Positions 4,363-24,662 of a stretch of 26,224 bases of DNA are shown in pieces. The notes under the pieces were generated by a model. It was not told the DNA's origin. It saw nothing but the letters and a program-made list of their open reading frames with translations, and ran no database searches. This stretch comes from a virus, in the IMG/VR virus record IMGVR_UViG_3300035070_002017, positions 1 to 26,224 of that record. One strand, given 5' to 3'. The translations under genes and the position numbers were made by a program. Position 1 is the first letter of the stretch. Each line of letters begins with the position of its first letter.

Positions 4363-4364
4363 AC

Positions 4365-5006: not shown

Positions 5007-5008
5007 TT

Positions 5009-6941: not shown

Positions 6942-6942
6942 T

Positions 6943-7401
6943 ATGCCACTACCAAAACCAAAAGCTGGAGAATCAAGGAAAGACTTTATGCAAAAATGCA
7001 TGAGTGACTCAAAGGCTACAAGCGAATTTCCAAATACTGATCAAAGACTAGCTGTCTGTTCAACACAATACAGAGACAAATATGAAAAGGTAGACTTAGA
7101 ATCTTATAACGATTATCCTCAGTCAGCAGTAAACAATGCTAAGAGAGCTTTAAAGTGGACTGAAGAAAACGGATGGGGTTCTTGCGGTGAGGCTACTGGA
7201 AAAAAAAGAGCATCACAAATTGCATCAAAATCAAAACTAAGTAGAGATACTATAGCACGCATGGCATCTTTTAAAAGACACCAGCAACACAAAGACGTTC
7301 CATATTCAGAAGGATGTGGTGGTCTTATGTGGGATGCTTGGGGTGGTTCTTCAGGAATCAACTGGGCTATAAATAAATTAAAACAAATAGATAAAAAATA
7401 A
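6943..7401 (+). CDS. Conserved phage protein with two motifs usually tied to head genes
   Basis: The 152-aa protein has two parts. The N-terminus (MPLPKPKAGESRKDFMQKCM, then EFPNTDQRLAVCSTQ; C19 and C39) is a short motif I know from phage portal or prohead-protease-linked proteins. The C-terminal part (AKRALKWTEENGWGSCGE, ARMASFKRHQQHKD, and GLMWDAWGGSSGINWA at about 127-142) is a conserved domain of unknown function, also often attached to structural proteins. Here it stands alone in the early region, far from the capsid genes. The function is unknown. Confidence 0.6.
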   Translation: MPLPKPKAGESRKDFMQKCMSDSKATSEFPNTDQRLAVCSTQYRDKYEKVDLESYNDYPQSAVNNAKRALKWTEENGWGSCGEATGKKRASQIASKSKLSRDTIARMASFKRHQQHKDVPYSEGCGGLMWDAWGGSSGINWAINKLKQIDKK

Positions 7402-7405
7402 AATT

Positions 7406-7540
7406 ATGCCAATTAGCAATCAAATTTTCGAAGCTTTTAGAAAACATAAAAAGGAAATCGACAAAGCTGTAGACTTTTTACATGAAGAAAACTATACTAT
7501 CTACGACGATAGAGGGAAAAAAATAATTAAAAAGAAATAG
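7406..7540 (+). CDS. Small hypothetical protein (44 aa)
   Basis: An ATG at 7406 opens a 44-aa frame ending with TAG at 7538-7540. The product is basic and helical (MPISNQIFEAFRKHKKEIDK, then AVDFLHEENY). It fills the gap between two convincing genes with 4 nt and 1 nt spacing, which supports a real gene. No function is known. Confidence 0.5.
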   Translation: MPISNQIFEAFRKHKKEIDKAVDFLHEENYTIYDDRGKKIIKKK

Positions 7541-7541
7541 T

Positions 7542-7730
7542 ATGAATAAATTAAAAAGATTAATGCTACTGCCTCCAATGAGACAATTTGGAGAGTATGT
7601 AAAAAACTACTTTACTAGAGACATTGGTATTCTACCTTTTACAAGAAAAGTAAAATCTATAAAAGAAAAAGCACAAATTATGAATGCTGCTTGGGATGCA
7701 ATGAATAGAGATATACAAGTAGAAGAATGA
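7542..7730 (+). CDS. Small hypothetical protein (62 aa)
   Basis: The 62-aa basic product (MNKLKRLMLLPPMRQFGEYV...) starts 1 nt after the preceding stop and overlaps the next ATG by 4 nt (ATGA). It has no recognised motif. The spacing indicates translational coupling within the early operon. Confidence 0.5.
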   Translation: MNKLKRLMLLPPMRQFGEYVKNYFTRDIGILPFTRKVKSIKEKAQIMNAAWDAMNRDIQVEE

Positions 7731-7894
7731 CTGAACTGATTAAACACGCATTAGGATTCTGTGGAGAACATTGGCATCCTAATCTTTTTACTTTACTAGC
7801 AGGAGGCTTTGGATTAAGCACAATTATTTCCTGCCTGTATTTAAATTTAAGATGTAAAATTAATCGGTTTATAAAAAGTATAAAAAAGTATTGA
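7727..7894 (+). CDS. Small single-pass membrane protein (55 aa)
   Basis: The product has one clear transmembrane segment (FTLLAGGFGLSTIISCLYL, about 21-39) followed by a basic tail, suggesting N-out/C-in topology by the positive-inside rule. The start GFCGEHWHPNLFT is a motif I have seen in small flavobacterial phage proteins of unknown role. It could be a holin-like, superinfection or membrane-anchoring protein. The ATG overlaps the upstream stop (ATGA). Confidence 0.5.
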   Translation: MTELIKHALGFCGEHWHPNLFTLLAGGFGLSTIISCLYLNLRCKINRFIKSIKKY

Positions 7895-7931
7895 TTTGTA
7901 TGCATAATTTTTGTATAATGTATCGCTTAGT

Positions 7932-8282
7932 ATGTACACTAAGAAATACCAAAACAGAAATAAATACAAAGCTGTAAAGCAGAAATTTAATGGTCGAACC
8001 TACCATAGTAAAAAAGAAGCTGCTTATGCTGCCGAACTAGAATGGAGATTAAAGGCAGGAGAAATAGTTGAGTACATACCTCAACATCCATTAAGACTGT
8101 ATGTAAATGAAAAGAAAATATGTAATTACTTTATTGACTTTAAAGTAATTTATCCAGATGGCTCTATAGAGCTAGTTGAAGTTAAAGGTTTTGAGACAGA
8201 TGTCTGGAGACTAAAATGGAAACTAACCGAAGCACTACTTGATGAACTAGAACCTAATGCAACTTTAGTTTTAGTTAAATGA
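7932..8282 (+). CDS. DUF1064-type phage nuclease (PD-(D/E)xK fold)
   Basis: The 116-aa protein fits DUF1064: YHSKKEAAYAAEL (25-37) with E29, the IPQHPL segment, then FIDF (D69) and VEVKG (E83, K85), which is the D...ExK metal-dependent nuclease signature. Proteins of this family are regarded as endonucleases or Holliday-junction resolvase-like enzymes that prepare phage DNA for packaging or recombination. I start at ATG 7932; an upstream in-frame TTG at 7911 adds only non-conserved residues. A TATAAT at 7914-7919 lies just before the gene and might be a local promoter, but it has no clear partner box. Confidence 0.75.
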   Translation: MYTKKYQNRNKYKAVKQKFNGRTYHSKKEAAYAAELEWRLKAGEIVEYIPQHPLRLYVNEKKICNYFIDFKVIYPDGSIELVEVKGFETDVWRLKWKLTEALLDELEPNATLVLVK

Positions 8283-8812
8283 CCAAGAATCAAGTAATAC
8301 AAGACATAGCTAAATACCATGTAGAGTGGGTAAGGTTTGTATATAAAAACTCTTTAAACCTAAATCAGAAACGCAATGCTGAAGATTATGTACAAGATGC
8401 CTATATAAAGATTTTAAAATATTCTTCGTTTGATCCTGTTAAGTTTTATCAAAGTGACGGTAAAATAAACAAGAAGTATTTTTTCAGAACACTTAAAAGC
8501 ATTTTGATTGATGACAATAAAAAGAAAGAAATAAGAACTGTAAGCCTAAATGAAAAATTAAATCTACCAGACATTACAGAAATAAAACAAAACCTGGAGG
8601 TAGTATTTAATAAAATAGAAAAGACAATAAACAATATGTACTGGTATGATAAAAAGATGTTAAATCTCTATGTCTACCATATTCCTAGTATTAGGAAAAT
8701 CTCTACAGCAACTACAATAAGTAGTAAGTCTGTATTTAAAACACTTAAAAGGTGTAAACTCACAATAAAAAAAGAAGTAGCAAAAGAATATTATTATGGC
8801 AAAACAGGCTAA
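8279..8812 (+). CDS. Phage sigma-factor-like protein (sigma-70 family, ECF-like layout)
   Basis: The 177-aa protein has a region-2-like N-terminal half (residues about 8-80), with AEDYVQDAYIKILKY (34-48) matching the core-binding helix motif (DxxQd.f.k..). The C-terminal half carries a region-4-like HTH (about 125-165: IPSIRKISTATTISSKSVFK, then TLKRCKLTIKK). Two domains within about 180 aa is the ECF sigma layout. It overlaps its upstream neighbour by 4 nt and lies just before the terminase genes, so it would be made at the end of the early programme. Three repeated GGAAC/CGTA-like elements before late genes are obvious candidate targets. Fold call fairly good; target is inference. Confidence 0.7.
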   Translation: MTKNQVIQDIAKYHVEWVRFVYKNSLNLNQKRNAEDYVQDAYIKILKYSSFDPVKFYQSDGKINKKYFFRTLKSILIDDNKKKEIRTVSLNEKLNLPDITEIKQNLEVVFNKIEKTINNMYWYDKKMLNLYVYHIPSIRKISTATTISSKSVFKTLKRCKLTIKKEVAKEYYYGKTG

Positions 8813-9209
8813 AAAATCACCAAGAAAATCAACTAGAAAAAAAGCAGCTCCTAAATCAAAAGGGCTAGGAGATAGTATTGAGAAGTTCACAAAGAAAACT
8901 GGAATTAAAAAAGTAGTGGAGAAAGTATCTGAAGTTACAGGAATTGACTGTGGCTGTGATGAAAGAAAAAATCTTCTTAATAAGATGTTTCCTTATAGAA
9001 ATACAGAATGCCTTACAGAAGATGAGTTTAATTGGTTAGATGTTTTCTACAAGAGTAGAAAGTCAACTCTAACACACCAGGAGCAAACTAAAATGGTAGC
9101 AATACACAATAGAGTTTTAGCAGCTCGTAGAGAAGTCAGTTCATGTGGCTCTTGCGTAAGAGACATGGTAAACATAATGAAAAGATTATACCTAGAATAC
9201 AAGAAGTGA
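8796..9209 (+). CDS. Conserved phage protein: basic tail plus cysteine-rich core
   Basis: The first 23 residues are a lysine/arginine/proline tail (KKSPRKSTRKKAAPKSKG), like histone-H1-type or nucleic-acid-binding tails. Next comes the block GLGDSIEKFTKKTGIKKVVE, then DCGCDERKNLLNKMFPY, which I have met in Bacteroidetes phages ahead of the terminase; function unknown. Two more cysteines occur in SSCGSCV, so a CxC plus CxxC metal site is possible. The gene overlaps the sigma gene by 17 nt. It could bind DNA or RNA during the switch to packaging. Confidence 0.6.
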   Translation: MAKQAKKSPRKSTRKKAAPKSKGLGDSIEKFTKKTGIKKVVEKVSEVTGIDCGCDERKNLLNKMFPYRNTECLTEDEFNWLDVFYKSRKSTLTHQEQTKMVAIHNRVLAARREVSSCGSCVRDMVNIMKRLYLEYKK

Positions 9210-9223
9210 AAAGCATAGCTATC

Positions 9224-9637
9224 ATGTCAAAGGTCTTCGGTGGAAAGCTAGTGAGAAATAAAGGCATGGTAGCAAATGCGATAAAACATTTTGAAGGAAA
9301 ACAAGTGGAGATAATTATAAAAGAAAAAAAGAAATATAGAACCTCTCCGCAAAACGCATACTACTTTGGAGTAATAATTCCTCTAACAGTAAATGCAATA
9401 TATAACGAATGGGGAGAAGTATGGTCTAAAGAGAAAGCTCATGAGTTCTTTAAAAGTAGATTTCTATTTGAAGAAAGAGTAAATGAGCAGACAGCAGAGA
9501 TAATACAGATTCCTAAATCTACAACTGACAATACTACTTTAGAACAAGAGGAGTATCATAATAAGTGCGTAGAGTTTTTAAAGGAGTGGTTTAATGTAGA
9601 AGTGCCACTACCAAATGAGAACATTAGAATTGATTAA
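9224..9637 (+). CDS. NinB-like recombination protein
   Basis: From ATG 9224 the product is 137 aa. It has the NinB/Orf hallmarks: RTSPQNAYYFGVIIPL (39-54), a central helix with KAHEFFKSRF, the KSTTDNTTL turn, and the end WFNVEVPLPNE. NinB (lambda Orf) binds ssDNA and assists recombination in place of RecFOR. A longer in-frame start at 9143 would run through the preceding gene and adds non-conserved residues, so I reject it. It is the last gene before the terminase and may cooperate with the SSB-type protein. Confidence 0.7.
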   Translation: MSKVFGGKLVRNKGMVANAIKHFEGKQVEIIIKEKKKYRTSPQNAYYFGVIIPLTVNAIYNEWGEVWSKEKAHEFFKSRFLFEERVNEQTAEIIQIPKSTTDNTTLEQEEYHNKCVEFLKEWFNVEVPLPNENIRID

Positions 9638-9654
9638 TCAAGTTTTTTCAAGTT

Positions 9655-9888
9655 ATGAGTAAACATGGAGGTAAAAGAGAAGGTTCAGGCAGAAAGGCTA
9701 AAATAGAGGAGCTAGAGTTAATAGAAAAGTTAAAGCCATTAGAGCCATTAGCTTATGAAGCATTAAAGCAAGGTCTTGCAGATCAGGATTACAGATTTGT
9801 ACAACTCTACTTAAACTATTACTATGGTAAGCCTAAAGAGACTAAGGACATAACTATAAATGAAGATCAACCTTTGTTTATAGATTAG
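9655..9888 (+). CDS. terS: Terminase small subunit-like protein (77 aa)
   Basis: The product starts MSKHGGKREGSGRKAKIEEL. The GG.REGSGRK start is typical of small terminase or terminase-adjacent proteins in Bacteroidetes phages. Two helices follow (PLAYEALKQGLADQDYRFVQ, then LYLNYYYGKP). At 77 aa it is short for TerS. It lies immediately before terL (stop abuts the ATG), where TerS belongs; it would recognise phage DNA and start packaging. Confidence 0.65.
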   Translation: MSKHGGKREGSGRKAKIEELELIEKLKPLEPLAYEALKQGLADQDYRFVQLYLNYYYGKPKETKDITINEDQPLFID

Positions 9889-11058
9889 ATGCAAGTCAAA
9901 AAAACCTTAGCCTTAGACAAACTAAGAAACCTAAACAGTAGAACTAAAATTATAAGAGGAGGATCGTCAGCAGGTAAAACAATAGCGATCTTATTAATTC
10001 TTATAGATTATGCCATTAGAAATAAAGGTAAGGAGATTAGTGTTGTATCTGAATCTATTCCTCATTTGCGTAGAGGAGCTTTAAAGGACTTTCTAAGTAT
10101 ACTTAAAGGTCTGAACAGGTACTATGAAAAGAAGTTTAATAGAAGTACTTTAAAATATGAATTTAGCAATGGTTCTTATATTGAGTTTTTCTCTACAGAC
10201 CAGCCTGACAAATTAAGAGGAGCAAGAAGAACTGATCTTTACATTAACGAATGCAATAATGTGCCTTTTGATGCTTACCAACAACTAGCAGTTAGAACAA
10301 GTGGAGACATATGGCTTGACTACAATCCTGCTAATTTATTTTGGGTAGACAAAGAACTAATAGGTCAAAGTGATACTGACTTTGTTACATTAACTTACAA
10401 AGACAATGACAGCCTGCCAGAATCAATAGTAAAAGAAATAGAGAAAGCAAGAGACAAAGCTAAGACATCAACATACTGGGCAAACTGGTGGAAAGTATAT
10501 GGCTTAGGAGAAATAGGTAGTTTAGAAGGAGTATGTATACCAGACTGGAAAGAGATTGATAAGATACCAGAAGATGCAAGATTACTTTGTGGAGGCATGG
10601 ACTTTGGTTATTCTGTTGATCCTTCAACTTATATAAGGCTATACAAGTGGAATAATGCTTACATATTTGATGAAATGCTTTATAGAAAAGGAATGCACAA
10701 TAGAGACATTAGTTTATTTCTTACAAGCCAACACATTAAAGAAAACATATATGCAGATTCAGCAGAACCTAAATCAATAGCTGAACTTAAGAACTATGGT
10801 CATGCAGTTTATCCTGTAACTAAAGGTAGAGATTCAATAATCTATGGAATTAACCTTATGAATCAAAATGAAATCTATGTTACTAGAAAAAGCAAGAATC
10901 TAATCAAAGAACTACAAGGTTACATTTGGGCTAAAGACAAAGAAGGTAATGACTTGCAAAAACCAACAGGAACACATCCAGACTGCATTGATGCTGCCAG
11001 GTATGCACTTATGATGCAACTAGAAAATCCTAACAGAGGTCAATATCATTTTTATTAA
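9889..11058 (+). CDS. terL: Terminase large subunit
   Basis: The 389-aa protein has a Walker A motif GGSSAGKT (24-31), a Walker B-like DLYINE with catalytic E121, and an RNase-H-like nuclease domain with acidic residues D238 (GGMDFGYSVD), D290 (YADSAEP) and D365/D368 (HPDCIDAA). It is the motor that drives DNA into the prohead and cuts concatemers, and it acts on the portal. It is slightly shorter than typical TerL (about 420-550 aa) but all motifs are present. It follows terS without a gap. Confidence 0.95.
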   Translation: MQVKKTLALDKLRNLNSRTKIIRGGSSAGKTIAILLILIDYAIRNKGKEISVVSESIPHLRRGALKDFLSILKGLNRYYEKKFNRSTLKYEFSNGSYIEFFSTDQPDKLRGARRTDLYINECNNVPFDAYQQLAVRTSGDIWLDYNPANLFWVDKELIGQSDTDFVTLTYKDNDSLPESIVKEIEKARDKAKTSTYWANWWKVYGLGEIGSLEGVCIPDWKEIDKIPEDARLLCGGMDFGYSVDPSTYIRLYKWNNAYIFDEMLYRKGMHNRDISLFLTSQHIKENIYADSAEPKSIAELKNYGHAVYPVTKGRDSIIYGINLMNQNEIYVTRKSKNLIKELQGYIWAKDKEGNDLQKPTGTHPDCIDAARYALMMQLENPNRGQYHFY

Positions 11059-11059
11059 A

Positions 11060-11080
11060 GTGTGCATATGTACTGCACAC
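11060..11080. promoter_or_regulatory. Inverted repeat directly behind terL
   Basis: GTGTGCA (11060-11066) and TGCACAC (11074-11080) are perfect 7-bp inverted arms around a 7-nt loop, starting 2 nt after the terL stop. No T-tract follows, so it is a poor terminator. It may be an operator for the promoter box at 11089 or an RNA stem protecting the terL message. Confidence 0.45.
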
Positions 11081-11088
11081 ATACTTTA

Positions 11089-11096
11089 TATGTTTG
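11089..11096 (+). promoter_or_regulatory. Candidate promoter -7 box (TAnnTTTG type)
   Basis: TATGTTTG fits the Bacteroidetes -7 consensus. It lies 36 bp before the gene at 11133 and just after an inverted repeat. No good TTTG -33 box is seen at the normal distance. It could drive the small gene and the non-coding region behind it. Confidence 0.35.
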
Positions 11097-11132
11097 TAGT
11101 GTAAAAAATGTATAACCTTTAATTTTTAATTT

Positions 11133-11402
11133 ATGACTTTTAAAATAAACTCAAGTAACACTTTTAAGGATGATCTAAAAGAAAATCCTAAAGCTGCAAT
11201 GTATATGCTTAAATCTTTTATTTATGTTTTAAACACTAAACGTAATGACAAGTATTTAGATTTATGTAGAAAATACTTTGCATTTAAAAAAGATGAACTT
11301 GCTGACAATATGCTTACTCTTATAGGGTTTCAGCAAAGGTTATTTGAACCAATATTATCAGAAATGATAAAACTTAAAGACAGTAAGCGTCAAGTTGAGT
11401 AG
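11133..11402 (+). CDS. Hypothetical protein between terL and the non-coding RNA (89 aa)
   Basis: The 89-aa product is helical and lysine-rich (begins MTFKINSSNTFKDDLKENPK; central LDLCRKYFAFKKDELADNML). No family is recognised. Unlike its neighbours it is not overlapped by another gene: 74 nt separate it from terL, with an inverted repeat and a -7-like box, and more than 300 nt of non-coding DNA follow. It may therefore be an independently expressed unit. Confidence 0.5.
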   Translation: MTFKINSSNTFKDDLKENPKAAMYMLKSFIYVLNTKRNDKYLDLCRKYFAFKKDELADNMLTLIGFQQRLFEPILSEMIKLKDSKRQVE

Positions 11403-11644
11403 ACTCGAACATCTATAAAACTTGTAACCTTACAAACGTATAATCGGATAAAATTAAAACCAATTCGAGAAAGCGTAAAGAGTTGAAGTGATATAAACGC
11501 TGTTATAGTTGTGGGGGAAATAGATGGAGTGTTAGTAACAAAAAATGTTTTATAGCATAATTTAGTAAAGTCTAGCTAAATAAGTAAACATAATGAGGTT
11601 ACTGGGCAACTAAATAGGTAAGACGAAAGTTTTACGACTCTTAT
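11403..11644 (+). ncRNA. Candidate structured non-coding RNA behind terL
   Basis: About 240 nt without any plausible gene, unlike the tightly packed DNA on both sides, and closed by a strong terminator. Helices that I can pair by eye: 11404-11409 with 11464-11469 (CTCGAA/TTCGAG) around a small hairpin at 11422-11435; 11472-11476 with 11497-11501 (AGCGT/ACGCT); a nested set 11532-11539/11598-11605, 11545-11550/11586-11591 and 11561-11565/11576-11580; and a 7-bp stem with a GAAA tetraloop at 11618-11635. It matches no RNA class that I can name. It could be a trans-acting RNA, a packaging RNA, or a cis leader. The 5' end is unknown. Confidence 0.5.
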
Positions 11645-11677
11645 AAACCAGTCTTGTCGAGAGGGCTGGTTTTTTTT
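11645..11677 (+). terminator. Strong rho-independent terminator
   Basis: AAACCAG (11645-11651) pairs with CTGGTTT (11666-11672), extended inward by T-G and C-G pairs, and runs into eight T at 11670-11677. It ends the non-coding transcript just 11 bp before late promoter element 1, insulating the tail module from upstream transcription. Confidence 0.85.
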
Positions 11678-11687
11678 ATTAGTAGTG

Positions 11688-11720
11688 GAGTACAGTTTAT
11701 GATTTTATCGTACATATAGT
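11688..11720 (+). promoter_or_regulatory. Late promoter element 1 (before the tail module)
   Basis: First of three gap-free matching elements (others at 19153 and 19927). Box A reads GAGTACAGTTT (11688-11698), box B TCGTACATATAGT (11708-11720), directly followed by the ATG at 11721. Invariant in all three: TTT at 11696-11698, ATTT at 11702-11705 and TCGTACATATA. CGTA at 11709-11712 lies 15 nt behind the box-A TAC, like ECF promoters (GGAAC, about 16 nt, CGTA/C). If CGTA is the -10 element, transcription starts at or very near the ATG. Confidence 0.6.
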
Positions 11721-12392
11721 ATGAAAGTCAAAATATTAGTACCTGAATCATTAGCAGAAATTACATTAGAGCAATACCAAAAGTTTCTAAAGATTTCTGA
11801 AGAAAATGAGAACAGTTTATTTCTACAACAAAAAATGATAGAGATATTCTGTAACATAGAGTTAAAGCAGGTATTAAATATAAAATACAATTCAATAGTT
11901 AAAATAACTAATCATTTAAACAAGCTGTTTGAGCAGAAGCCTGAATTTACACCAACATTTAAAAGACAAAACTTAGAGTTTGGATTTATCCCTAAACTAG
12001 ATGACATGACCTTTGGAGAATTTGTAGACTTAGATACTACAATAGCAGACTGGGAGAATATACATAAAGCTATGGGAGTTTTATACAGACCAGTAACTCT
12101 AAGCAAAAACAAAAAGTATCAAATAGAATCTTATGAGTCTTTTGATAAATATGACATGCAAAAAATGCCATTAGATGTAGTTCTTGGAGCTTTGTTTTTT
12201 TTTTGGAATTTAAGCAAAGAATTAACGATACATATACCGAACTTTTTCAGGGAGGAGTTACAGAATCTGACCTCTCAGCAAAAGCAAACTTTGGAAGAAA
12301 GTGGGGTTGGTATTCAAGCCTATATGGACTCAGTAATGGAGATGTACTTAAACTTAACAAAGTTACAAGACAGCCATTACACCAATGCTTAA
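11721..12392 (+). CDS. Putative tail assembly chaperone-like protein (G-like frame)
   Basis: The 223-aa protein is the first gene of the tail module. Residues about 1-160 (MKVKILVPESLAEITLEQYQ ... FIPKLDDMTFGEFVDLDT ... VLYRPVT) form a conserved block that I associate with flavobacterial phage tail regions. At 12195-12204 a run of ten T occurs in codons 159-162 (FFFW). From there a second frame (-1) is open to 12460 and looks equally protein-like. This resembles the G/GT arrangement of tail chaperones, in which a minor -1 shift fuses a C-terminal extension: here 161 + 85 = 246 aa. In the zero frame the protein ends 62 codons later. The chaperone role is inferred from this architecture. Confidence 0.55.
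   Translation: MKVKILVPESLAEITLEQYQKFLKISEENENSLFLQQKMIEIFCNIELKQVLNIKYNSIVKITNHLNKLFEQKPEFTPTFKRQNLEFGFIPKLDDMTFGEFVDLDTTIADWENIHKAMGVLYRPVTLSKNKKYQIESYESFDKYDMQKMPLDVVLGALFFFWNLSKELTIHIPNFFREELQNLTSQQKQTLEESGVGIQAYMDSVMEMYLNLTKLQDSHYTNA
12195..12204 (+). promoter_or_regulatory. T10 slippery run, candidate -1 frameshift or slippage site
   Basis: Ten consecutive T (codons TTT TTT TTT T) sit exactly where the -1 frame that encodes the downstream protein begins (TTG at 12203). The run permits ribosomal -1 slippage on T TTT TTT and also polymerase slippage adding a U. It is also a spot where a sequencing error could create a false frame change. Confidence 0.5.
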
Positions 12393-12460
12393 TGTTTTTG
12401 TCTTTTGAAAAGGATAAAAATGAAACTGAAACTAGAATATTAAAACAAAAAATAAAGTAG
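12203..12460 (+). CDS. -1 frame extension / overlapping tail protein (T-like, 85 aa)
   Basis: This frame overlaps the previous gene by 190 nt. The segment FGRKWGWYSSLYGLSNGDVL, then KVTRQPLHQCLMFLSFEKDK, is strongly protein-like and recalls conserved small proteins of Bacteroidetes phage tail regions. The only start-like codon at its beginning is a TTG inside the T10 run, so it is more likely made as a -1 extension of the upstream protein than alone. No ATG occurs until near its end. Its stop overlaps the next start (GTG at 12460). Confidence 0.6.
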   Translation: MEFKQRINDTYTELFQGGVTESDLSAKANFGRKWGWYSSLYGLSNGDVLKLNKVTRQPLHQCLMFLSFEKDKNETETRILKQKIK

Positions 12461-12747
12461 TGAAAGAATTTTTAGTAGAGGAGCTTTATGAAAGAGGGTT
12501 TATACCTTATGATGAAACTATTGTACTAGCAGAAGGTTTTGAAGATGCTATGATAGGAGTAAGTACAACAAATCCTAAAAGAGCTGTTTACAGCTATTGG
12601 AAATGCCTAGACTGTCTAATTAAGACTAAAGTAAATAATCAAGTATTTGACTTTGATGCAGCTTTAGAATGGTTAGACGATTATATAGAAGAAACTAATA
12701 ATAGTGATATAAACTCATTCACTCCAATATTTATTAAAACATTATGA
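12460..12747 (+). CDS. Hypothetical tail-region protein (95 aa)
   Basis: A GTG start shares its G with the upstream stop (TAGTG) and the stop overlaps the next ATG (ATGA). The 95-aa acidic protein contains LAEGFEDAMIGVSTTNPKRA, then VYSYWKCLDCLI and a C-terminal acidic helix. The motif 'A..GV......aVYs...C' recurs in phage small proteins in my memory, but I cannot name a function. Strict coupling makes it part of the tail operon. Confidence 0.55.
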   Translation: MKEFLVEELYERGFIPYDETIVLAEGFEDAMIGVSTTNPKRAVYSYWKCLDCLIKTKVNNQVFDFDAALEWLDDYIEETNNSDINSFTPIFIKTL

Positions 12748-13199
12748 CATCTTATTATAAAATAATCGATACACTTAAAACTGCTTTAGAAGCAGAGCCA
12801 TTTGTTAATACTGTAAGCTATGGTAACATCTATGATGTAGATTTATCTAAGCAAACAATATTTCCTCTGTCTCACATTATGGTCAATCAAGCTACAATTG
12901 CAGCACCAATTATAACGTTCAATGTAACAATAATGTGTATGGATATTGTAGACGATCCTAAGACAGAAAGCACCTCTACATTCTTAGGAAATAATAATGA
13001 ACAAGATATACTGAATACTCAGCTTAATGTAGCTGACAGAATAGTAAGTAAACTAATGAGAGGAGATTTATTTAGTGACTTATTTCAATTAGATGGTACA
13101 GCAACCTGTGAGCCATTTAATGAAAGATTTGAAAACAGCTTAACAGGATGGGCTGTAACATTTGACATAACAGTTCCTAACCCAATGACTATTTGCTAA
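12744..13199 (+). CDS. Putative tail terminator / tail completion protein
   Basis: The 151-aa protein (begins MTSYYKIIDTLKTALEAEPF) has a central block ITFNVTIMCMDIVDDPKTES and an end FENSLTGWAVTFDITVPNPM. It fits a conserved Bacteroidetes siphophage family located between connector and tail genes. The length, alpha/beta composition and place upstream of the HK97-gp10-like and tape measure genes match tail terminators, which cap the tube and join it to the head. Direct motif evidence for the function is lacking. Confidence 0.5.
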   Translation: MTSYYKIIDTLKTALEAEPFVNTVSYGNIYDVDLSKQTIFPLSHIMVNQATIAAPIITFNVTIMCMDIVDDPKTESTSTFLGNNNEQDILNTQLNVADRIVSKLMRGDLFSDLFQLDGTATCEPFNERFENSLTGWAVTFDITVPNPMTIC

Positions 13200-13729
13200 T
13201 GGAAAATAAAAGATTATACAATGAACTAAATAAGTTTGGAAAGTATGTAGTACAACAATCAAGAAGCAATTTAACTAAAGAAAAGCATAATGCTACAAAA
13301 GAACTTTACAATTCAATAGGATATTTCTTAGATCAAACTGCAAGAGGCTATAAATTAAGTTTTGAAATGGAAGATTATGGGATGTTCCAAGACAGAGGGG
13401 TAAGAGGTGTAAAGTCATATTATGCAGACAGAGCTACAGCAAGTTCTCCATTCAAATACAAACAAAGCAGTAAGCTTATAGGTTTAGAATACCATACAGG
13501 AGTTTTTTCAAAGTTTGCTAAAAGAATGGGTTTACAACCTAGAAATAAAAAAGGTCAATTTGGATCATATAAAACAATGGGATATATACTAGCTAATAGT
13601 ATAAAAGACAAAGGAATTAAAGCAAGTATGTTTTTTACAAAACCATTCGAACAAGCTTTTAAAAGGCTTCCAGAGGACATTGAAAAATCTTTAATTGCTG
13701 ATTTAACAGAAAATATATATCAAAAATGA
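13199..13729 (+). CDS. HK97 gp10-like head-tail/tail completion protein
   Basis: From ATG 13199 (TAATG overlap with the upstream stop) the product is 176 aa. The segment YGMFQDRGVRG (60-70) matches the 'YG.FvdkGvrG' signature of gp10-like proteins that complete tails or connectors. The protein is basic. An in-frame TTG at 13193 is possible but unnecessary. The stop overlaps the next ATG (ATGA). Confidence 0.6.
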   Translation: MENKRLYNELNKFGKYVVQQSRSNLTKEKHNATKELYNSIGYFLDQTARGYKLSFEMEDYGMFQDRGVRGVKSYYADRATASSPFKYKQSSKLIGLEYHTGVFSKFAKRMGLQPRNKKGQFGSYKTMGYILANSIKDKGIKASMFFTKPFEQAFKRLPEDIEKSLIADLTENIYQK

Positions 13730-15093
13730 GTACAATAATAAATGCAAGAAGTCCATATTACGTTAAAATAAGTCCTGCTGCAAATACATTGACTACAGTA
13801 ACAATGAGTCTTTATATTTATTCAGGAGTGTTTACTACAGCAAAACCAGCTTCTGCTCAATACACAATAACTAAAACACCAATAGGCACTAATAATTATG
13901 TAGTGTTTGAGATAAGTCAATTAGTAAAAGATTATCTAGATACAGAATATGGAAACTTCTCCACAGATGCAGTTTGGGTTGAAGCAGATGTGGCATTGAC
14001 AACAAATGTAGGATCAGAAAGTCAAACATTAGATTATTTAAGCTTTGAAGGTTTTGGCTATTTTGAAAATGGAGTAAATCCAAGACAATCTACTAATCCT
14101 ATAAATACTTTAGTTACAGGTACTACAGACGGAGTAACAGTAGCTTATAAACTACAAGACTCCACACAAAACTTTTTAAATACAGTTAGTCTAGGTGATA
14201 CAGTAAATAATACAAGTGAGGGAGGTTCTACAACCATTACAGCAATTGAAAGCAATACATCCTTAGCTCTTAAAGATGACATCATGGTTTCAACACCTGA
14301 TAATTATACTATTGTAGCTCAACCTAATTACACACCAGCTTTATTACAAAGCAATACTAAAATCTATTTTAAACAAGGAACTGATATTGTATTCCCTGTA
14401 TTTGCTGAAGCTGAACCCACTATTACATTTACAAGTGGAGGAGGAGCAAACATTAAGTGGGAAAGAACAGATGAATTTTGGAACTTGTATCAAAACTACT
14501 GGGGAAATATATTAAGTCCAATTGTAGTTCCTGACAGTACAGACTCACTTGAAAAAATAGTTTACATAAGAGTTACTCCAACACTTACTTTACAAACAGG
14601 AGATACAATAACTGTAGTCTCCACTAAGTCTGGTTATGCTCAATCTTTTACGATTACACTTGAAGCTGTATGTGAGCCTAAGTATGAACAATTACAAATT
14701 ATATTCTACAATAAGTTTGGTGCAATGCAGATTATGCCATTCTTCAAAAAATCTGTTACGTCTATAAATGTAACAAGTAATGAATTTAAAAGAAACATCA
14801 TGGAGTTTGACAACGATCCAAACTATGATATATCAAAACATGATATTGCAACTCTTGGTGTAAACGGTAACGAGAGGATAAGTATTAACTCAGGATTTAT
14901 AGATGAAAGCTTTAATGAGATCATAAAAGAACTTATGCTAAGTGAACAAGTCTGGGTAGATAATGGTAGTTCAGTATTACCTATAAACCTAAACTCTAAA
15001 TCACTAACATTTAAAAAATCTGTGAACGATAAGCTTATAAATTATACAATGGACTTTAGCTATGCGTTTGATACTATAAATAACATTAGATAA
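13726..15093 (+). CDS. Minor tail structural protein (455 aa)
   Basis: The protein starts MSTIINARSPYYVKISPAAN and is rich in T, S, N and V with many predicted strands, as in beta-sandwich tail tip proteins. The central section (about 125-205), with repeated T/V segments such as VTGTTDGVTVAYKLQD, resembles an inserted immunoglobulin-like domain. I recognise the N-terminal start from flavobacterial phage tail clusters but know of no assigned function. It is translationally coupled on both sides (ATGA; TAATG). Confidence 0.6.
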   Translation: MSTIINARSPYYVKISPAANTLTTVTMSLYIYSGVFTTAKPASAQYTITKTPIGTNNYVVFEISQLVKDYLDTEYGNFSTDAVWVEADVALTTNVGSESQTLDYLSFEGFGYFENGVNPRQSTNPINTLVTGTTDGVTVAYKLQDSTQNFLNTVSLGDTVNNTSEGGSTTITAIESNTSLALKDDIMVSTPDNYTIVAQPNYTPALLQSNTKIYFKQGTDIVFPVFAEAEPTITFTSGGGANIKWERTDEFWNLYQNYWGNILSPIVVPDSTDSLEKIVYIRVTPTLTLQTGDTITVVSTKSGYAQSFTITLEAVCEPKYEQLQIIFYNKFGAMQIMPFFKKSVTSINVTSNEFKRNIMEFDNDPNYDISKHDIATLGVNGNERISINSGFIDESFNEIIKELMLSEQVWVDNGSSVLPINLNSKSLTFKKSVNDKLINYTMDFSYAFDTINNIR

Positions 15094-17168
15094 TGCAAAA
15101 CATTCAATTATTTATTGGAAATACATTAGTAGACTTATTTGATGACGAATCAGTTTCTTTAACCAATACTATACAAGAAATTAAAGATATTGCTAAGGTG
15201 TTTACAAGCTTTTCACAAAGTTTTGTAGTTCCAGCTTCAAAAGTAAATAATCAACTGTTTAAACATTACTATAATTTTAACATAGATAATGGATTTGATG
15301 CTAGACTTAAAGTGGATGCTACAATTGAATTAAATTATCTTCCTTTTCAAAAAGGTAAAATAAAACTTGAAGGAACTGAACTAAAAAACAATGAAATTTA
15401 TGGTTACAATATTACTTTCTTTGGTAATACTGTAGAGCTGAAAGATTTAATTGGTGAAGATACTTTAGATGCATTAGTAGGAGACTCAAACTGGATAGAT
15501 GGGTTTTCAATTCCTTATAGTTCCTCAGCAATACTTTCTGGATTAAGAAATGGTTACGATATAACAAATGACGGAGTGTCTTATTCTAATGCAATTATAA
15601 CTCCACTTATTACACATACAACTAGACTATTCTATGATACTGCAAGTGATACAGCAGACGATGGAAATTTAGCTCCTAATGGAAATGGCGAAAGTGCTGC
15701 TATGAATCATGGAGTGTACTGGAAAGATTTAAAGTATGCTATTAGAGTTGATCTTATAATTAAAGCTATTGAGAAAACGTATGGCATAACTTTCTCTACA
15801 GATTTCTTTAATTCTAGTAATGCTCCTTACTACAATCTATATATGTGGATGCATAGAAAAAAAGGTAATGTTGACGATCCTAATGCTCCAGCTACTTTTC
15901 CGCAATTAGTAAATTTTGGCTTAGATAGTACTATGACTAATGTTTTAGCAGCAGGTCAAACAGTAACGGTCAGTAATCAAACAGGAAATAATAAAATAAC
16001 TTCTACTTTAACTGTAACTCCTAACTCAGCAGAAAATACTGTCTATACTGTTAACGTAATAAAAGACGGTGTTATACAAGATAGTTTTTCACAAACTGCA
16101 CCGAGTGCTATAAGTGAATCAGTAGATTTAACAGACGGAAATTATCAAGTACAAATAGTAGTAAGAGAAGAATTTACAATAGATTCTATTTCTTGGGATT
16201 TAGCTGATTTACAAGTTCCAGAATCGCATACTATTAATTTAAGTGCTTTTACTATACAAGCAATAACACAGTTTGTTCCTTCAGCGCAGTTACCACCTCA
16301 AAAGGTGTTAGAATTTCTTACAGGTATCTTCAAGTTATTTAATCTTACAGCTTTTGTTTTAGATAACGGTACTATAAAAGTGCAAACACTAGATAGTTTC
16401 TATAATAATCAAAGTACAGGATCACCATTCGACATAAGCAGCTTTGTAGACATAAGTAAAAGTCAAGTTAATCTTGCTTTGCCTTATAGAGAAATTATAT
16501 TTCAATACAAAGGGTTAGGCACGAAGCTTGCTATGCAGCACGAACAGCTTACAACAGGTGGAGTAGGATGGGGAACAACTGAATATATGGGAGATGCAAA
16601 GTATGATGGTGGTGTATATAAAGTTGAAGCACCTTTTGAACACATGAAATACGAAAGGTTAATAAACATAGCTAATGGTAATAATACTACAGCTCAAGTA
16701 GGTTGGTGTGTAAATGATAATGATGAACCGTATTTGGGAGAACCTATTTTATTTTATCCTGTATACCAACAAAATCAAGATCAAATTAGATTTTTAAATG
16801 ACAGACCTTATCTAAATGCAAGTTCTAATATTGACATAGACGATTATTTTATTCCTAGCAATAGTGTAGCAATAGATGCTGCAACTTCAACTGCTAATAT
16901 TAACTACAATCAAGAAAATAACGAGTACGATATAACAGGAAATTTTACAGGTACACTATTTCAAACCTACTATGCAAATTATATAACTCAAATGTTCAAT
17001 AGTAAAAGAAGGCTAAATAAATTTACAGCTTATCTCCCTACAAACATTTTACTTAATTATGAATTGTCAGACCGATTTATAATAAACAATATTAGTTATA
17101 AAATAAACTCTGTAAATACTAATCTAAAAACTGGTTTAAGCACCTTAGAATTATTAAATGAAGTATAA
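15093..17168 (+). CDS. Tail tip / baseplate-type structural protein (691 aa)
   Basis: The N-terminal segment (VDLFDDESVSLTNTIQEIKD, then KVFTSFSQSFVVPAS) is conserved in Bacteroidetes siphophages and is followed by a beta-rich domain with YGYNITFFGNTVELKDL (about 106-122). A second half contains Ig-like stretches and a long beta region ending TGLSTLELLNEV. Size, composition and location between minor tail proteins and tape measure point to a distal tail or hub protein (Dit/Tal-like). I cannot show enzymatic motifs. Confidence 0.6.
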   Translation: MQNIQLFIGNTLVDLFDDESVSLTNTIQEIKDIAKVFTSFSQSFVVPASKVNNQLFKHYYNFNIDNGFDARLKVDATIELNYLPFQKGKIKLEGTELKNNEIYGYNITFFGNTVELKDLIGEDTLDALVGDSNWIDGFSIPYSSSAILSGLRNGYDITNDGVSYSNAIITPLITHTTRLFYDTASDTADDGNLAPNGNGESAAMNHGVYWKDLKYAIRVDLIIKAIEKTYGITFSTDFFNSSNAPYYNLYMWMHRKKGNVDDPNAPATFPQLVNFGLDSTMTNVLAAGQTVTVSNQTGNNKITSTLTVTPNSAENTVYTVNVIKDGVIQDSFSQTAPSAISESVDLTDGNYQVQIVVREEFTIDSISWDLADLQVPESHTINLSAFTIQAITQFVPSAQLPPQKVLEFLTGIFKLFNLTAFVLDNGTIKVQTLDSFYNNQSTGSPFDISSFVDISKSQVNLALPYREIIFQYKGLGTKLAMQHEQLTTGGVGWGTTEYMGDAKYDGGVYKVEAPFEHMKYERLINIANGNNTTAQVGWCVNDNDEPYLGEPILFYPVYQQNQDQIRFLNDRPYLNASSNIDIDDYFIPSNSVAIDAATSTANINYNQENNEYDITGNFTGTLFQTYYANYITQMFNSKRRLNKFTAYLPTNILLNYELSDRFIINNISYKINSVNTNLKTGLSTLELLNEV

Positions 17169-17308
17169 TGATAGGATCGATATTAGAACTTATAAAAATA
17201 ACTAATTGCAAAGGTAAATTTACTGAAATAGCAAAAGGCAAAAACAAATTACCTGAAACTTTTAAAGAAGCATATAATCAATTTAAAAAAGAATTAAGAA
17301 ATGGCTAA
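17168..17308 (+). CDS. Small tail-region protein (46 aa)
   Basis: A 46-aa frame starts at the stop of the preceding gene (TAATG) and overlaps the tape measure start by 8 nt (ATGGCTAA). The product (MIGSILELIKITNCKGKFTE, then IAKGKNKLPETFKEAYNQFK) is basic and helical. No family is recognised. The double overlap is strong support for a genuine, coupled gene. Confidence 0.55.
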   Translation: MIGSILELIKITNCKGKFTEIAKGKNKLPETFKEAYNQFKKELRNG

Positions 17309-19157
17309 AGAAATTATTATAGATATTAATGTAAGAGATGCTGAAAAAGCTCTACAAGAAATTAATGAAACTTTAAGAGTACAAAAAGAAATTATTGCAG
17401 ATTTAGAAGTTGCTAATACTAAACTTGAAAGTCAATTAGAAAAAACTTCAAAAAAAGATTTAAATAGACGTAGAGATATTACAAAACAAATATCAAAAAA
17501 CAAACAGCTTATAAAAGAAGAGAAAGCAGGTATAAAAGCTAATACAGCCGAAAGGGATAAGGCAAATGAAGCTTTAAAAGTTGCAAAAGAAAACACAGCC
17601 GATCTTAGTGGAGCTATGAATATCTTAGATAGTCAGACAGGAGGTCTTGCTTCTAGTCTTACAACATTTAGCTCAGGTGGTCTAAAGAAAACAATCAAAG
17701 GCTTTATGACCTTAAAAACATTAGCTATGGCTAGTGTATTTGGTTTAATAATTGGTGCTATAACTGCTTTAAAAACAGCTTTCACTTCATCTGAAGAAGG
17801 TCAAAACAAATTTTTAAGTATTATGACTCAAATTGGAGTTGTAGTAGGTAACGTTACTGATATAGTCGCTGATTTAGGAATGGGCATATTTAATGCAGGT
17901 AAAGCTTTAGTTAAATTAACGACAGGAGATTTTGCAGGAGCTACAGCAGCTTTTGCAGAAATGACTACTAATGTAAAATCTGCAACTAACAGTATAGTCA
18001 ATTTTGGTGAAGAAACTAGAAAGGAAATAAAACTTGCTAAAGAATTATCACAGCAAAGAGCTAAAGCAGACAAAGCTGAAAGGAAATTAATAGTTGAAAG
18101 AGCAGAAGCAAATAGAAAGGTTGCAGAGCTTAGAGAAAAAGCAGCAGACAAAGAAAATGTTAGTGTACAAGAAAGAATAGAAGCTATAAAAGAAGCAGGT
18201 AAAATTGAAGAAGAAATAACTGCTAAAGAAATAGAAGCTGCAAGGTTAAGGTTTGAAGCTAAGAAAACAGAGAACTCACTTAGCAAATCTACTAAAGAAG
18301 ATTTAGATGAAGAAGCACAATTACAGGCTACATTAATTGATTTAGAAACTGCAAGACTAAGAAAACAAAAGGCACTTACTGCTGAAATTACTACAGCACT
18401 AAGAGAAGAAGAAGCAGAAAGAAATAGAATTATAGCTGAAAGAAAAGCTAAAGAAGCTCAAGATAAAAAAGACAAAGAAGCACAAAAGAAAATTGACGAT
18501 GAAAATAAAGCAAAACAAGCTAAGTTAGATAAAGAAGCAGCAGATAAATTAGAAGCAGAAACTAAAGAAAGAAATCAAAGAGTTGCTGCTTCAGAAATAG
18601 AAATAGAACAAAGGAGATTAAATGCTAAAAAAGCATCAACAGATGGGATAATAAGTTTATTTGGTGCTGAATCTACAGCAGGCAGGGCAGCAGCAGCACT
18701 TAGAGGTGTACTAGCGGCTCAAGAAATGATCGCTGAAGCAAAAAAAAGTATAACCTTTTCTAGTTTAGCAGCAGCTAACTCAGCTACAGCAGTTGCAGAA
18801 GGTACTGCACAAACAGCTAAAGTTGGTTTTCCTCAGAATATACCTATGCTTATTGCTTATGCTATACAAGCAGCAGGTATTATATCTTCAATTACAGGAG
18901 CAGTAAGTAAATCAAAATCTATAGCCTCACAATTAGGAGGTGGTGGAGGCGGTGGTTCAAGTGTTAGTTTTCAAGCTGCACCAACTCCGTCAGTTCCTCC
19001 AGCTTTTAATGTAGTAGGAGCAAGTGCAACTAATCAATTAGCAGGAGCTATAGGCTCACAATCACAGAAACCTGTACAAGCTTTTGTAGTTTCTAATGAT
19101 GTGACTACAGCACAGAGTTTAGAAAGAAATATTATACAAGGAGCTAGTATAGGGTAA
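17301..19157 (+). CDS. Tape measure protein
   Basis: The 618-aa protein has the layout of a tape measure: a long N-terminal coiled coil (about 12-100), a hydrophobic region (LAMASVFGLIIGAITAL, 141-157, and 172-206), a very long Ala/Glu/Lys coiled coil (about 237-445), a second apolar region (about 455-545), a glycine run and a flexible end. Tape measures set tail length, roughly 0.15 nm per residue, so a tail near 90 nm would be expected (inference). The absence of a lysozyme or peptidase domain is normal for a short version. The stop codon overlaps box A of late promoter element 2. Confidence 0.85.
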   Translation: MAKEIIIDINVRDAEKALQEINETLRVQKEIIADLEVANTKLESQLEKTSKKDLNRRRDITKQISKNKQLIKEEKAGIKANTAERDKANEALKVAKENTADLSGAMNILDSQTGGLASSLTTFSSGGLKKTIKGFMTLKTLAMASVFGLIIGAITALKTAFTSSEEGQNKFLSIMTQIGVVVGNVTDIVADLGMGIFNAGKALVKLTTGDFAGATAAFAEMTTNVKSATNSIVNFGEETRKEIKLAKELSQQRAKADKAERKLIVERAEANRKVAELREKAADKENVSVQERIEAIKEAGKIEEEITAKEIEAARLRFEAKKTENSLSKSTKEDLDEEAQLQATLIDLETARLRKQKALTAEITTALREEEAERNRIIAERKAKEAQDKKDKEAQKKIDDENKAKQAKLDKEAADKLEAETKERNQRVAASEIEIEQRRLNAKKASTDGIISLFGAESTAGRAAAALRGVLAAQEMIAEAKKSITFSSLAAANSATAVAEGTAQTAKVGFPQNIPMLIAYAIQAAGIISSITGAVSKSKSIASQLGGGGGGGSSVSFQAAPTPSVPPAFNVVGASATNQLAGAIGSQSQKPVQAFVVSNDVTTAQSLERNIIQGASIG

Positions 19158-19185
19158 CACTTTACAATTTAATCGTACATATAAT
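19153..19185 (+). promoter_or_regulatory. Late promoter element 2 (before the prohead protease)
   Basis: Box A GGTAACACTTT (19153-19163) overlaps the tape measure stop; box B TCGTACATATAAT (19173-19185) runs directly into the ATG at 19186. The distance from CGTA to the ATG is the same as in element 1 (nine bases from the A of CGTA to the A of ATG), arguing that the start codon position is part of the design. Confidence 0.6.
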
Positions 19186-19791
19186 ATGGATATTATAGAA
19201 TTATTTTTAGACGAAGAAAACGAGCATTCAGGAATAGAAGCTATTTCTGTTGTTGAATCTCCTGCAATAGAATCAGATTTTATTGCACTTAAAAACCAAG
19301 AAATTAAAATGGCAGAAGTAGATAAGGAAAAAAGAATCCTTATGGGAGCTGCCTTAATACCAAATAAGCCTATTTATAGAAAGAATGAAATGGGAGAGGG
19401 TTATTATGTCTTTTTCTCATCTAATACTGTAAAAAAAGCTTCTGAAATGTTTTTTATTAGAGGCAACCAGTCTAAAGCTACTTTAGAACACCAAATGTCT
19501 GTTCAAAACTTGACTGTTGTAGAATCATGGCTAGTAGACAATCCTAAAATGGATAAATCAGTCAATTATGGCTTAGATGTTCCTAAAGGCACTTGGATGG
19601 TTTCTATGAAAGTTAATAATGATGAAATCTGGAACGATTATGTTAAAACAGGTAAAGTTAAAGGGTTTTCTATTGAAGGCTTCTTTTCAGATCAAGCTAA
19701 CAGACCAAAAGAGCAGATAGAAGAAGAGTTAGAAGCTAACAGCCTAATTAATAAAATAAAAGACATAATAAATGAAAATAAAACCATTTAA
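19186..19791 (+). CDS. Prohead protease (XkdF / peptidase S78_2-like)
   Basis: The 201-aa protein contains LMGAALIPNKPIYR (52-65), a histidine in LEHQ (H102), and VESWLVDNPKMDKS, then GKVKGFSIEGFF with S162. The pattern matches the XkdF-type serine proteases that mature proheads by cleaving scaffold and capsid precursors. H102 and S162 are the likely catalytic pair. It begins immediately after late promoter element 2, with no room for a ribosome binding site. Its C-terminal region overlaps a small cysteine-rich gene. Confidence 0.75.
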   Translation: MDIIELFLDEENEHSGIEAISVVESPAIESDFIALKNQEIKMAEVDKEKRILMGAALIPNKPIYRKNEMGEGYYVFFSSNTVKKASEMFFIRGNQSKATLEHQMSVQNLTVVESWLVDNPKMDKSVNYGLDVPKGTWMVSMKVNNDEIWNDYVKTGKVKGFSIEGFFSDQANRPKEQIEEELEANSLINKIKDIINENKTI

Positions 19792-19918
19792 AAACCTAGC
19801 ACATTCCTCTCCAAGAAATAGCAAACGTGGTTGTTTATGTAAAGACAATACTTACAGTTCTAAATGCTGTAATGGTGGTTTACATGAGCAAGGCATTGGA
19901 AAAACTAGAGCTAGTTAA
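19772..19918 (+). CDS. Small cysteine-motif protein (48 aa)
   Basis: The gene overlaps the protease gene by 20 nt. The product holds the motif RGCLCKDNTYSSKCCNGGLH, followed by EQGIG, which I have seen repeatedly in Bacteroidetes phage head modules, alone or appended to other proteins. Four cysteines (CxC and CC) could bind a metal or form a small knot. Its function is unknown; position between protease and scaffold suggests a head assembly role. Confidence 0.6.
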   Translation: MKIKPFKNLAHSSPRNSKRGCLCKDNTYSSKCCNGGLHEQGIGKTRAS

Positions 19919-19926
19919 AAATAAGT

Positions 19927-19960
19927 GGGAACACTTTTAGATTTTGTCGTACATATAATA
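19927..19960 (+). promoter_or_regulatory. Late promoter element 3 (before scaffold and capsid)
   Basis: The best match to an ECF promoter of the three: GGGAACACTTT (19927-19937), then TCGTACATATAATA (19947-19960), with 15 nt between GGAAC and CGTA. Unlike elements 1 and 2, the start codon follows 29 bases behind the A of CGTA (ATG 19980), so this message would have a leader of about 20 nt. It would drive the scaffold and the most abundant protein, the capsid. Confidence 0.65.
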
Positions 19961-19979: not shown

Positions 19980-20624
19980 ATGAAAGCATCAGAAATAGTT
20001 GAATCAATCAAAGAAGTTCTAGGGATGGAACTTTCAGAAGTTAAAGTAGAACTTGAAGAAAGAAAATTAGAAAACGGAACTAGAATAGAAGCTGAGTCTT
20101 TTGAAAAAGGAAAATCAGTATTCATTTTGACAGATGACGAAAAAGTAGCAATGCCAGTTGGAGAATATTTATTCGAGGACGGTACTTTACTTCTTGTAGA
20201 AGAAGAAGGAGTAATTGCAGATGTTAGAGAAGATGTAGACGATGAAGTTCCACAAAAAGAAGAAGCAGGAGAAGAAAAAGAAGAAATGAAAGAAGAAGAA
20301 GAATATGATGAAGAAGCAGATGTAGCTGACTGGAAAGGAATGGAAAAAAGAATTAAAAACTTAGAAGATGCTATTGCTGATTTAAAATCTGACAAAGAAA
20401 ACAAAAACTCTAAAGAAGTTGAAGCTTCTGAAGAAGTTAAAGAAGAAGAAGTAGTAGAGGAAAAAGTAGAAGCATCTAAAGTTGAATTAAACAAAGTAGA
20501 AGCTGCTGAACCAATATCTCACAATCCTGAAAAGGTAGAGAAAAAAGAAAGAGTACACTTAGCTAAAAATAGAGCTAAAAGCACTTTAGATAGAGTATTA
20601 GAAAAATTAAACAATCACAAATAA
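19980..20624 (+). CDS. Head scaffolding protein
   Basis: The 214-aa protein is extremely acidic, with a glutamate-rich centre (about 85-120) and a coiled-coil stretch (WKGMEKRIKNLEDAIADLKS), and has a basic C-terminal end (ERVHLAKNRAKSTLDRVLEK). Acidic coiled body plus basic C-terminal capsid-binding end, immediately before the capsid gene and behind the protease, is the usual scaffold pattern. It would guide capsid assembly and then be cut by the protease. No family name is recognised with certainty. Confidence 0.7.
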   Translation: MKASEIVESIKEVLGMELSEVKVELEERKLENGTRIEAESFEKGKSVFILTDDEKVAMPVGEYLFEDGTLLLVEEEGVIADVREDVDDEVPQKEEAGEEKEEMKEEEEYDEEADVADWKGMEKRIKNLEDAIADLKSDKENKNSKEVEASEEVKEEEVVEEKVEASKVELNKVEAAEPISHNPEKVEKKERVHLAKNRAKSTLDRVLEKLNNHK

Positions 20625-20641
20625 CAATTAAATTTTAAAAC

Positions 20642-21589
20642 ATGAGCAATCACAAAGTAGACCTAGCAACTACGGTCAACATTACAACGACTTATGCAGG
20701 TCAATGGGCATCTAAATATGTGTCTATTGCTTTGCTAAGTGGAAAAACTTTAGACAATGGCGGTGTAACAATTATGCCAAACATTGACTACAAATATGTC
20801 ATCCAAAAAGGAGCATTCGACTCTAACTTCATTAAAAACGCAAGCTGTGACTTTACAGATACAGGTGCAGTAACTTTAACTGAAAGAGTCCTTACATTAG
20901 AGGAGTTCCAAATCAACTCTGAGTTTTGTAAAAAAGACTTTTCACAAACTTGGCAAGCTGCTGAGATGGGATATTCGGTACTGAACTCTGATTTACCATC
21001 TTCATTTCAAGAGTTTATTGTTACAAATTTTGCTGCTAAAATAGCTGACAAATATGAGCAAACAATCTGGAATGGTTCTAATGCTAACGAAGGAGAATTT
21101 GACGGATTTACAGTTCTATTTGCTGCTGACGGAGACGTAAATGATGTTACTGCTGTAGTAGGAGGTATCAATGCTGGAAATGTAATTGCTGAATTACAAA
21201 AAATCGTTGCTGCAATTCCTGCAACTGTTTACGAAAAAGAAGATATGCACGTTTACATAGGAACTGACATCTTAAGATTCTACATTCAAGCTTTAGGCTT
21301 AGTAGGAGCTGGTTCAGGTATTGATAATAAAGGAACACTTTGGTACAATGGAGTTCCATTAACTATAGACGGAGTAAAATTATTTCACTCACCAGGTATG
21401 CCTGCTAATAAAGCAGTAGCTGCTCAATCTTCTAATTTATACTTTGGTACTGGATTACTTTCAGACATGAACGAAATTAGAATTATTGACATGCAAGACA
21501 TCGATGGATCACAAAATGTAAGATTCATTATGCGTTGGAAAGCTGGAATTGAGTACGGAATAGGAAGCGAAGTAGTATTATACGCTTAA
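20642..21589 (+). CDS. Major capsid protein
   Basis: The 315-aa protein has the size and composition of an HK97-fold capsid: an N-terminal arm, an E-loop region (YVIQKGAFDSNFIKNASC), a P-domain (SSFQEFIVTNFAAKIADKYE, then QTIWNG) and an A-domain with VYIGTDILRFYI and a conserved end (RFIMRWKAGIEYGIGSEVV). It sits 17 nt after the scaffold. Codons look somewhat less AT-biased than in the neighbours, as expected for a highly expressed gene. Confidence 0.8.
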   Translation: MSNHKVDLATTVNITTTYAGQWASKYVSIALLSGKTLDNGGVTIMPNIDYKYVIQKGAFDSNFIKNASCDFTDTGAVTLTERVLTLEEFQINSEFCKKDFSQTWQAAEMGYSVLNSDLPSSFQEFIVTNFAAKIADKYEQTIWNGSNANEGEFDGFTVLFAADGDVNDVTAVVGGINAGNVIAELQKIVAAIPATVYEKEDMHVYIGTDILRFYIQALGLVGAGSGIDNKGTLWYNGVPLTIDGVKLFHSPGMPANKAVAAQSSNLYFGTGLLSDMNEIRIIDMQDIDGSQNVRFIMRWKAGIEYGIGSEVVLYA

Positions 21590-21629
21590 TAGTAAGAAAA
21601 TAAAGTTTAACCTTTTAAAATAAATAAAT

Positions 21630-22178: not shown

Positions 22179-22220
22179 AAAACGATAGGTTTCTTTTCAT
22201 TAAGTTTTGTTTAGGTTAGG

Positions 22221-22256: not shown

Positions 22257-22267
22257 AAAAAGGTGTT

Positions 22268-24653: not shown

Positions 24654-24662
24654 AATTAAACT

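Follow-up and report, generated by a model that had tools for sequence, protein, structure and literature searches.

An ECF-type sigma factor encoded by the phage, together with three matching elements ahead of its tail, protease and scaffold/capsid genes, very probably constitutes the late-gene on-switch of the phage. The window, meaning the whole stretch of DNA analysed, is a viral record of 26,224 bases with the following features.

1137-2327, integrase-like gene, assigned from sequence
2529-3095, minus strand, divergent HTH repressor-like gene (Pfam HTH_19/HTH_3, below cutoff)
8279-8812, plus strand, predicted phage ECF-type sigma factor gene (177 aa; PHROG 1740, AF2, Foldseek)
11645-11672, plus strand, intrinsic-terminator-like hairpin, after the terminase-side operon and ahead of late promoter 1
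11688-11718, plus strand, predicted late promoter 1 (tail operon): -35-like TAC at 11691-11693, N15, -10 box CGTACATATA from 11709; ATG at 11721
11721-19157, plus strand, late unit 1, tail genes through the tape measure (open reading frames; position, length, PHROG of unknown function)
19153-19183, plus strand, predicted late promoter 2 (protease): AAC at 19156-19158, N15, CGTACATATA from 19174; ATG at 19186
19186-19791, plus strand, late unit 2, head maturation protease (Peptidase_S78_2, Pfam E 1.2e-14)
19927-19957, plus strand, predicted late promoter 3 (scaffold/capsid): GGAAC at 19928-19932, N15, CGTACATATA from 19948; ATG at 19980
19980-25169, plus strand, late unit 3, scaffold-like, capsid, portal and later genes (PHROG capsid-type and portal matches)

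The HTH repressor-like gene and the integrase point to a temperate phage, judging from their sequences. A run of small early genes follows the HTH gene and leads to a VRR-NUC-like gene at 7911 and the sigma gene. The first-pass annotation had the sigma gene ending the early block; this did not hold, as the genes at 8796 and 9143, terS and terL come after it and before the first element, with the terminase genes extending to 11058. T-tracts or hairpins occupy the place of the 11645-11672 hairpin in several relatives, and an Rfam scan returned nothing relevant. The region at 11133-11700 contains an 89-aa open reading frame with no Pfam or PHROG match, followed by a block of about 200-290 nt ending in a terminator. 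The 5' 131 nt are 88-93% identical in the distant phages G047, L199 and L189 and also in L005; other close relatives have different cassettes or none at this place. A 32-nt core of the block recurs in 15 viral stretches and is not in Rfam. The region looks like a mobile cassette with an RNA that is conserved and may be structured.

Promoter-like elements ahead of the late units

Exactly three copies of TCGTACATATA are present in the window, at 11708, 19173 and 19947, always on the plus strand, and the reversed control gave none. A weight matrix built from the relatives and the window scored the three sites at 42-50 bits, compared with 2.6 for the next-best match in the window and 8.6 for the best of 20 shuffles. 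An unbiased ranking of the best-matching pairs of upstream regions also placed the three element pairs on top (40.7, 40.2 and 39.1; next 26.1). The exact count, the matrix and the pair search confirmed the earlier observation of three matching elements, each ahead of a late unit, and its reading of promoter 3 as GGAAC-N15-CGTA is correct (19928-19951). The AAC-N15-CGTA layout, with an ECF-type AAC -35 box and CGT -10 box, has fixed spacing at every site of the window clade. All three predicted promoters are kept at equivalent places in relatives, and the near-full window-clade contigs G002, G004 and G008 also carry exactly three. Promoter 2 overlaps the 3' end of the tape-measure reading frame.

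Upstream of the tail and protease genes the element ends 2 nt short of the ATG, as translation-initiation or RNA signals near start codons might. However, the third site carries the same sequence 22 nt from the scaffold ATG, conservation extends 35 nt upstream of the ATGs, and both boxes are conserved across the sites with a constant spacer. We regard an RNA signal as the least probable of the readings weighed here. If the elements are promoters, their geometry relative to the start codons is informative. In 45 of 64 sites, 12-13 nt separate the first base of the -10 box from the A of the start codon; the background expectation is about 1%. In ECF numbering the first -10 base is position -11 (PMC6411747), and with the 12-13-nt geometry the predicted start falls 0-2 nt from the ATG, so that many late mRNAs would be leaderless. 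In Flavobacterium psychrophilum, leaderless mRNAs account for only 5.5% (PMC9723704).

The predicted late promoters lack TAnnTTTG, the Bacteroidetes housekeeping -7 box, which goes with a TTTG about 20 nt upstream. This host-type signal had been reported for the early region, but its eight strict matches, against six in the reversed control, were not clearly above chance; the most plausible one by position lies near 3192. E. coli-type sigma70 promoters were also sought in the window and did not exceed shuffles.

The sigma gene and its predicted product

The product of 8279-8812 is very likely an ECF-type sigma factor and a predicted late-gene regulator, on the basis of profile matches and a structure model. 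Pfam Sigma70_r2 matched it weakly (E 0.015, below cutoff), and PHROG 1740, 'RNA polymerase sigma factor', matched with E 1.8e-6. A profile of the sigma family retrieved Mtb SigE from the PDB (E 0.003), and the family member of phage P12024S scored above the Pfam cutoff for the sigma-70 region profile. The AF2 model had a mean pLDDT of 81, with sigma2 (about residues 1-86) and sigma4 (103-170) each at about 90 in the ECF arrangement and a disordered linker (87-102) between them; there was no sigma1.1 or sigma3 domain. The best Foldseek matches were ECF sigmas with probability 1.00, including Mtb SigE (9m9e), SigL (6dv9) and SigH (6kop/5zx2), AlgU, SigW and E. coli sigmaE. Their global TM was low, 0.3-0.4, as expected if the orientation of sigma2 and sigma4 is free. 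The PHROG match, the two-domain model and the ECF matches bear out the reality of the sigma-like reading frame. ECF sigma genes usually have a cognate anti-sigma gene beside them. No anti-sigma gene was recognised among the open reading frames adjoining the sigma gene, many of which have no assignment.

The bacterial sigma factor SigW likewise consists of sigma2 and sigma4 and reads AAC -35 and CGT -10 boxes. In Flavobacterium, a CGT -10 box has been interpreted as marking promoters of one ECF class, SM6 (PMC9723704). The window system has the same architecture and boxes as these bacterial ECF sigmas with a CGT -10 box. It differs in its spacer, N15 against about N16-17 (1-2 nt shorter), and in that a phage sigma would have the late-switch role.

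Distribution and concerted change among relatives

Two scans of IMG/VR with the sigma factor and the capsid gave 102 loci, and a third scan with a sigma alignment gave at least 207 candidate relatives. The pattern ACASTTTN9TYGTACATATA was searched in 2.9 million viral contigs (the whole of IMG/VR) and was present in 38 stretches, of which 35 have the structural genes of the window. In those 35, the element precedes the start codon of the tail or protease gene by 2 nt, or that of the scaffold gene by 22-23 nt. Two further matches lie in coding DNA and look like chance. The remaining stretch has an extra site in a relative that shares the integrase: in L249, a fourth window-type element (5255-5281, minus strand) precedes a lysis-like module with an M15-like peptidase. 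This site suggests that an additional late promoter may be present in full-length phages.

An iterated profile found the sigma gene in nearly every relative complete enough to judge; many loci, being fragments that stop short of the sigma gene, are uninformative on its presence. The high-GC relative G015 has neither the sigma gene nor the elements. No clear element was found in the sigma-bearing fragments G048 and G050, and the elements of G017/G018 are weak, their matches on the coding strand being no more numerous than those on the opposite strand or in the reversed control. Overall, the co-occurrence of element and sigma among the relatives scanned was favourable to their connection. The only isolates found with this sigma family are the Nonlabens phages P12024S and P12024L, reached via portal and synteny; tblastn with the window sigma or a distant member as query found no isolate-phage relative. 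A search of 84,980 species genomes for prophage relatives gave none that was convincing, only two weak matches in Bacillota/Clostridiales MAGs. Two relatives showed peculiarities of their own. In G022 (L121), two adjoining open reading frames at 5595-6650 both match the sigma profile, and this phage may carry two sigma genes. In G038 (L209), pairs of near-identical upstream segments within 3978-11072 are 3,789 bases apart, a spacing that indicates a long direct duplication, possibly an assembly artefact.

The core of the element had been described as invariant. This is true within the window phage, but in close relatives the core varies in concert at all three places. G002 and G008 have TTGTACATATA at all three sites, and G007/G012 have TTGTATTATATA at all three. 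More distant sigma-bearing phages carry clade-specific versions (CGTTATATA, CGATATATA, TTGTATTATATA, ACGTTATATA, TCGTTTTATA, TAGTTATTATAG and others), with CGTTAATATA in P12024S. Across clades a genome has 2-6 core sites, for the most part confined to the coding strand, against 0-1 in the reversed control in most clades. In a permutation test (n=29), the protease element matched the scaffold element of its own genome at 10.72 of 14 positions and those of other genomes at 9.23 (p<1e-4). Within-genome likeness was also found between protease and tail (p<1e-4) and between tail and scaffold (p=1e-4), while flanking control DNA showed none in the same test (p=0.85 and 0.41). Concerted change among sites, none of which is a copy of another, points to one trans-acting reader. 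A Mantel test of sigma against element distance was positive, but flanking DNA correlated equally, reflecting shared ancestry, and we set it aside. The sigma of G009 (L133/L134) is divergent, with an insertion in the promoter-reading region of sigma2, and its element lacks CGT (TCTATTATATAGTATG).

Among 35 sigmas with known elements, residue 78 was the best of all sigma columns in predicting the first base of the -10 box, being correct in 34. Asp accompanied C in 22 of 22 cases, Asn accompanied T or A in 9 of 9 and Gln accompanied T in 2 of 2; Ser gave one each, and the single exception is G011, which has Ser with C. For distant clades, the -10 bases were assigned by visual inspection of the sites. 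Within the window clade, residue 78 was the sole perfect separator of C and T among 101 variable columns, and G004 appears to have changed recently to Asp and C within the Asn/T group. A tree test with independent pairs found 4-5 supported pairs and none opposite, which is too few for significance, the floor of the sign test being 0.125. Predictions for the remaining sigma-bearing fragments were mostly consistent where a site was found, with a loose pattern that is not independent. A crystal structure containing Mtb SigH, RNA polymerase and promoter DNA shows the SigH residue N92 in contact with the base pair that immediately precedes the two flipped-out bases (PMC6411747); this pair is the one at the first -10 base. 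Residue 78 would be the homologue of N92, from the residue spacing (R70/I77/D78 = R84/I91/N92) and an ungapped alignment with SigE over the helix.

These results bear on who reads the elements. They could be real promoters read by a host ECF sigma, with the phage sigma serving another role; F. psychrophilum has seven ECF sigmas, and one of its predicted promoter classes, SM6, has a -10 box of the CGT type (PMC9723704). Against this, the elements vary by clade and in concert, and the -10 base tracks a residue of the phage sigma, which is unexpected for a host factor. The absence of the element from the sigma-less G015 argues in the same direction, and we judge a host reader very unlikely. It is slightly less likely still that the elements are sites of another phage activator, repressor or antitermination factor and that the sigma gene is coincidental. 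Conserved bipartite boxes could serve as operators, and there are other early proteins of unknown role, but the fixed ATG geometry, the ECF-like layout of -35 and -10 boxes and the coupling to the promoter-reading helix of sigma2 (from a column analysis on the sigma alone) speak against this reading.

Proposed late switch and its place among known systems

In the mechanism we propose, the host holoenzyme would read the early promoters and make the sigma from the early operon. The sigma would then bind host core RNA polymerase and direct it to three bipartite late promoters with the consensus GGRWWACASTTT-N9-T(C/T)GTACATATA, that is, (A/T)AC-N15-CGTA. Sigma4 would recognise the -35 box (ACA/AAC) and sigma2 the -10 box (CGTA), whose first base would be set by residue 78 (Asp with C, Asn with T or A). 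Transcripts would begin at the tail and protease ATGs or 0-2 nt upstream of them, and the scaffold transcript would have a leader of about 20 nt. Since the promoters are nested and co-directional, the capsid genes, downstream of all three, would receive the highest dose. The idea of a self-contained late switch gains from the co-occurrence, the concerted change and the residue-base coupling, but 'self-contained' is too strong because the sigma would still need host core RNA polymerase.

The closest characterised parallel is the Kuravirus group, in which, as proposed here, an ECF-type sigma of the phage (phiEco32 gp36, phage 7-11 sigma) redirects host RNA polymerase to a few middle or late promoters. 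The promoters of gp36 have been mapped, and their motif is given as tAATGTATAtA, 6-8 nt before the start (PMC4281155); the phage 7-11 motif was discovered via pairwise comparison of intergenic regions (PMC4331800). The phiEco32-type promoters are a handful before middle and late genes with none elsewhere, similar to the three in the window. gp36 and the window sigma both match PHROG 1740, but a direct profile comparison with gp36 was not significant. Unlike the window phage, phiEco32 and 7-11 are enterobacterial podoviruses, unrelated to it, and the reported motif is -10-like, whereas an AAC -35 box is conserved here. The passages of these papers that were consulted describe no leaderless geometry and no coupled specificity residue. 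Common phage-sigma ancestry with gp36 is possible, and by analogy the working mode may be like that of gp36.

In P12024S and P12024L, gp33 ('containing Sigma-70 region 2') is syntenic, between the VRR-NUC gene and terminase, and was caught by the iterated sigma profile; the portal, capsid and protease homologues are common to these phages and the window. They have about seven elements of their own, AAAACA-N15/16-CGTTA, just ahead of genes. Their sigma is very divergent from that of the window, their -10 consensus is CGTTAATATA, and their record has the gene as hypothetical and gives no promoter. The window phage is marine, and from this relationship its host is probably a member of the Bacteroidetes. 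Our searches of the open-access literature turned up no account of a late promoter for any Bacteroidetes phage.

On a wider scale, we lean modestly towards the view that marine Bacteroidetes phages share an ECF-sigma late system, co-diversified by the residue 78 code and with mostly leaderless late mRNAs. If true, these phages form a natural series of matched sigma-promoter pairs, many of them for bacteria in which genetic tools are scarce. How marine Bacteroidetes phages time their genes seems to be little understood, and the sigma family and its elements would allow direct recognition of late operons in uncultured phages, across the IMG/VR candidates described above. The residue-base rule is specific and testable for ECF sigma factors, and the leaderless geometry makes it possible to test directly whether Bacteroidetes translate leaderless mRNAs.
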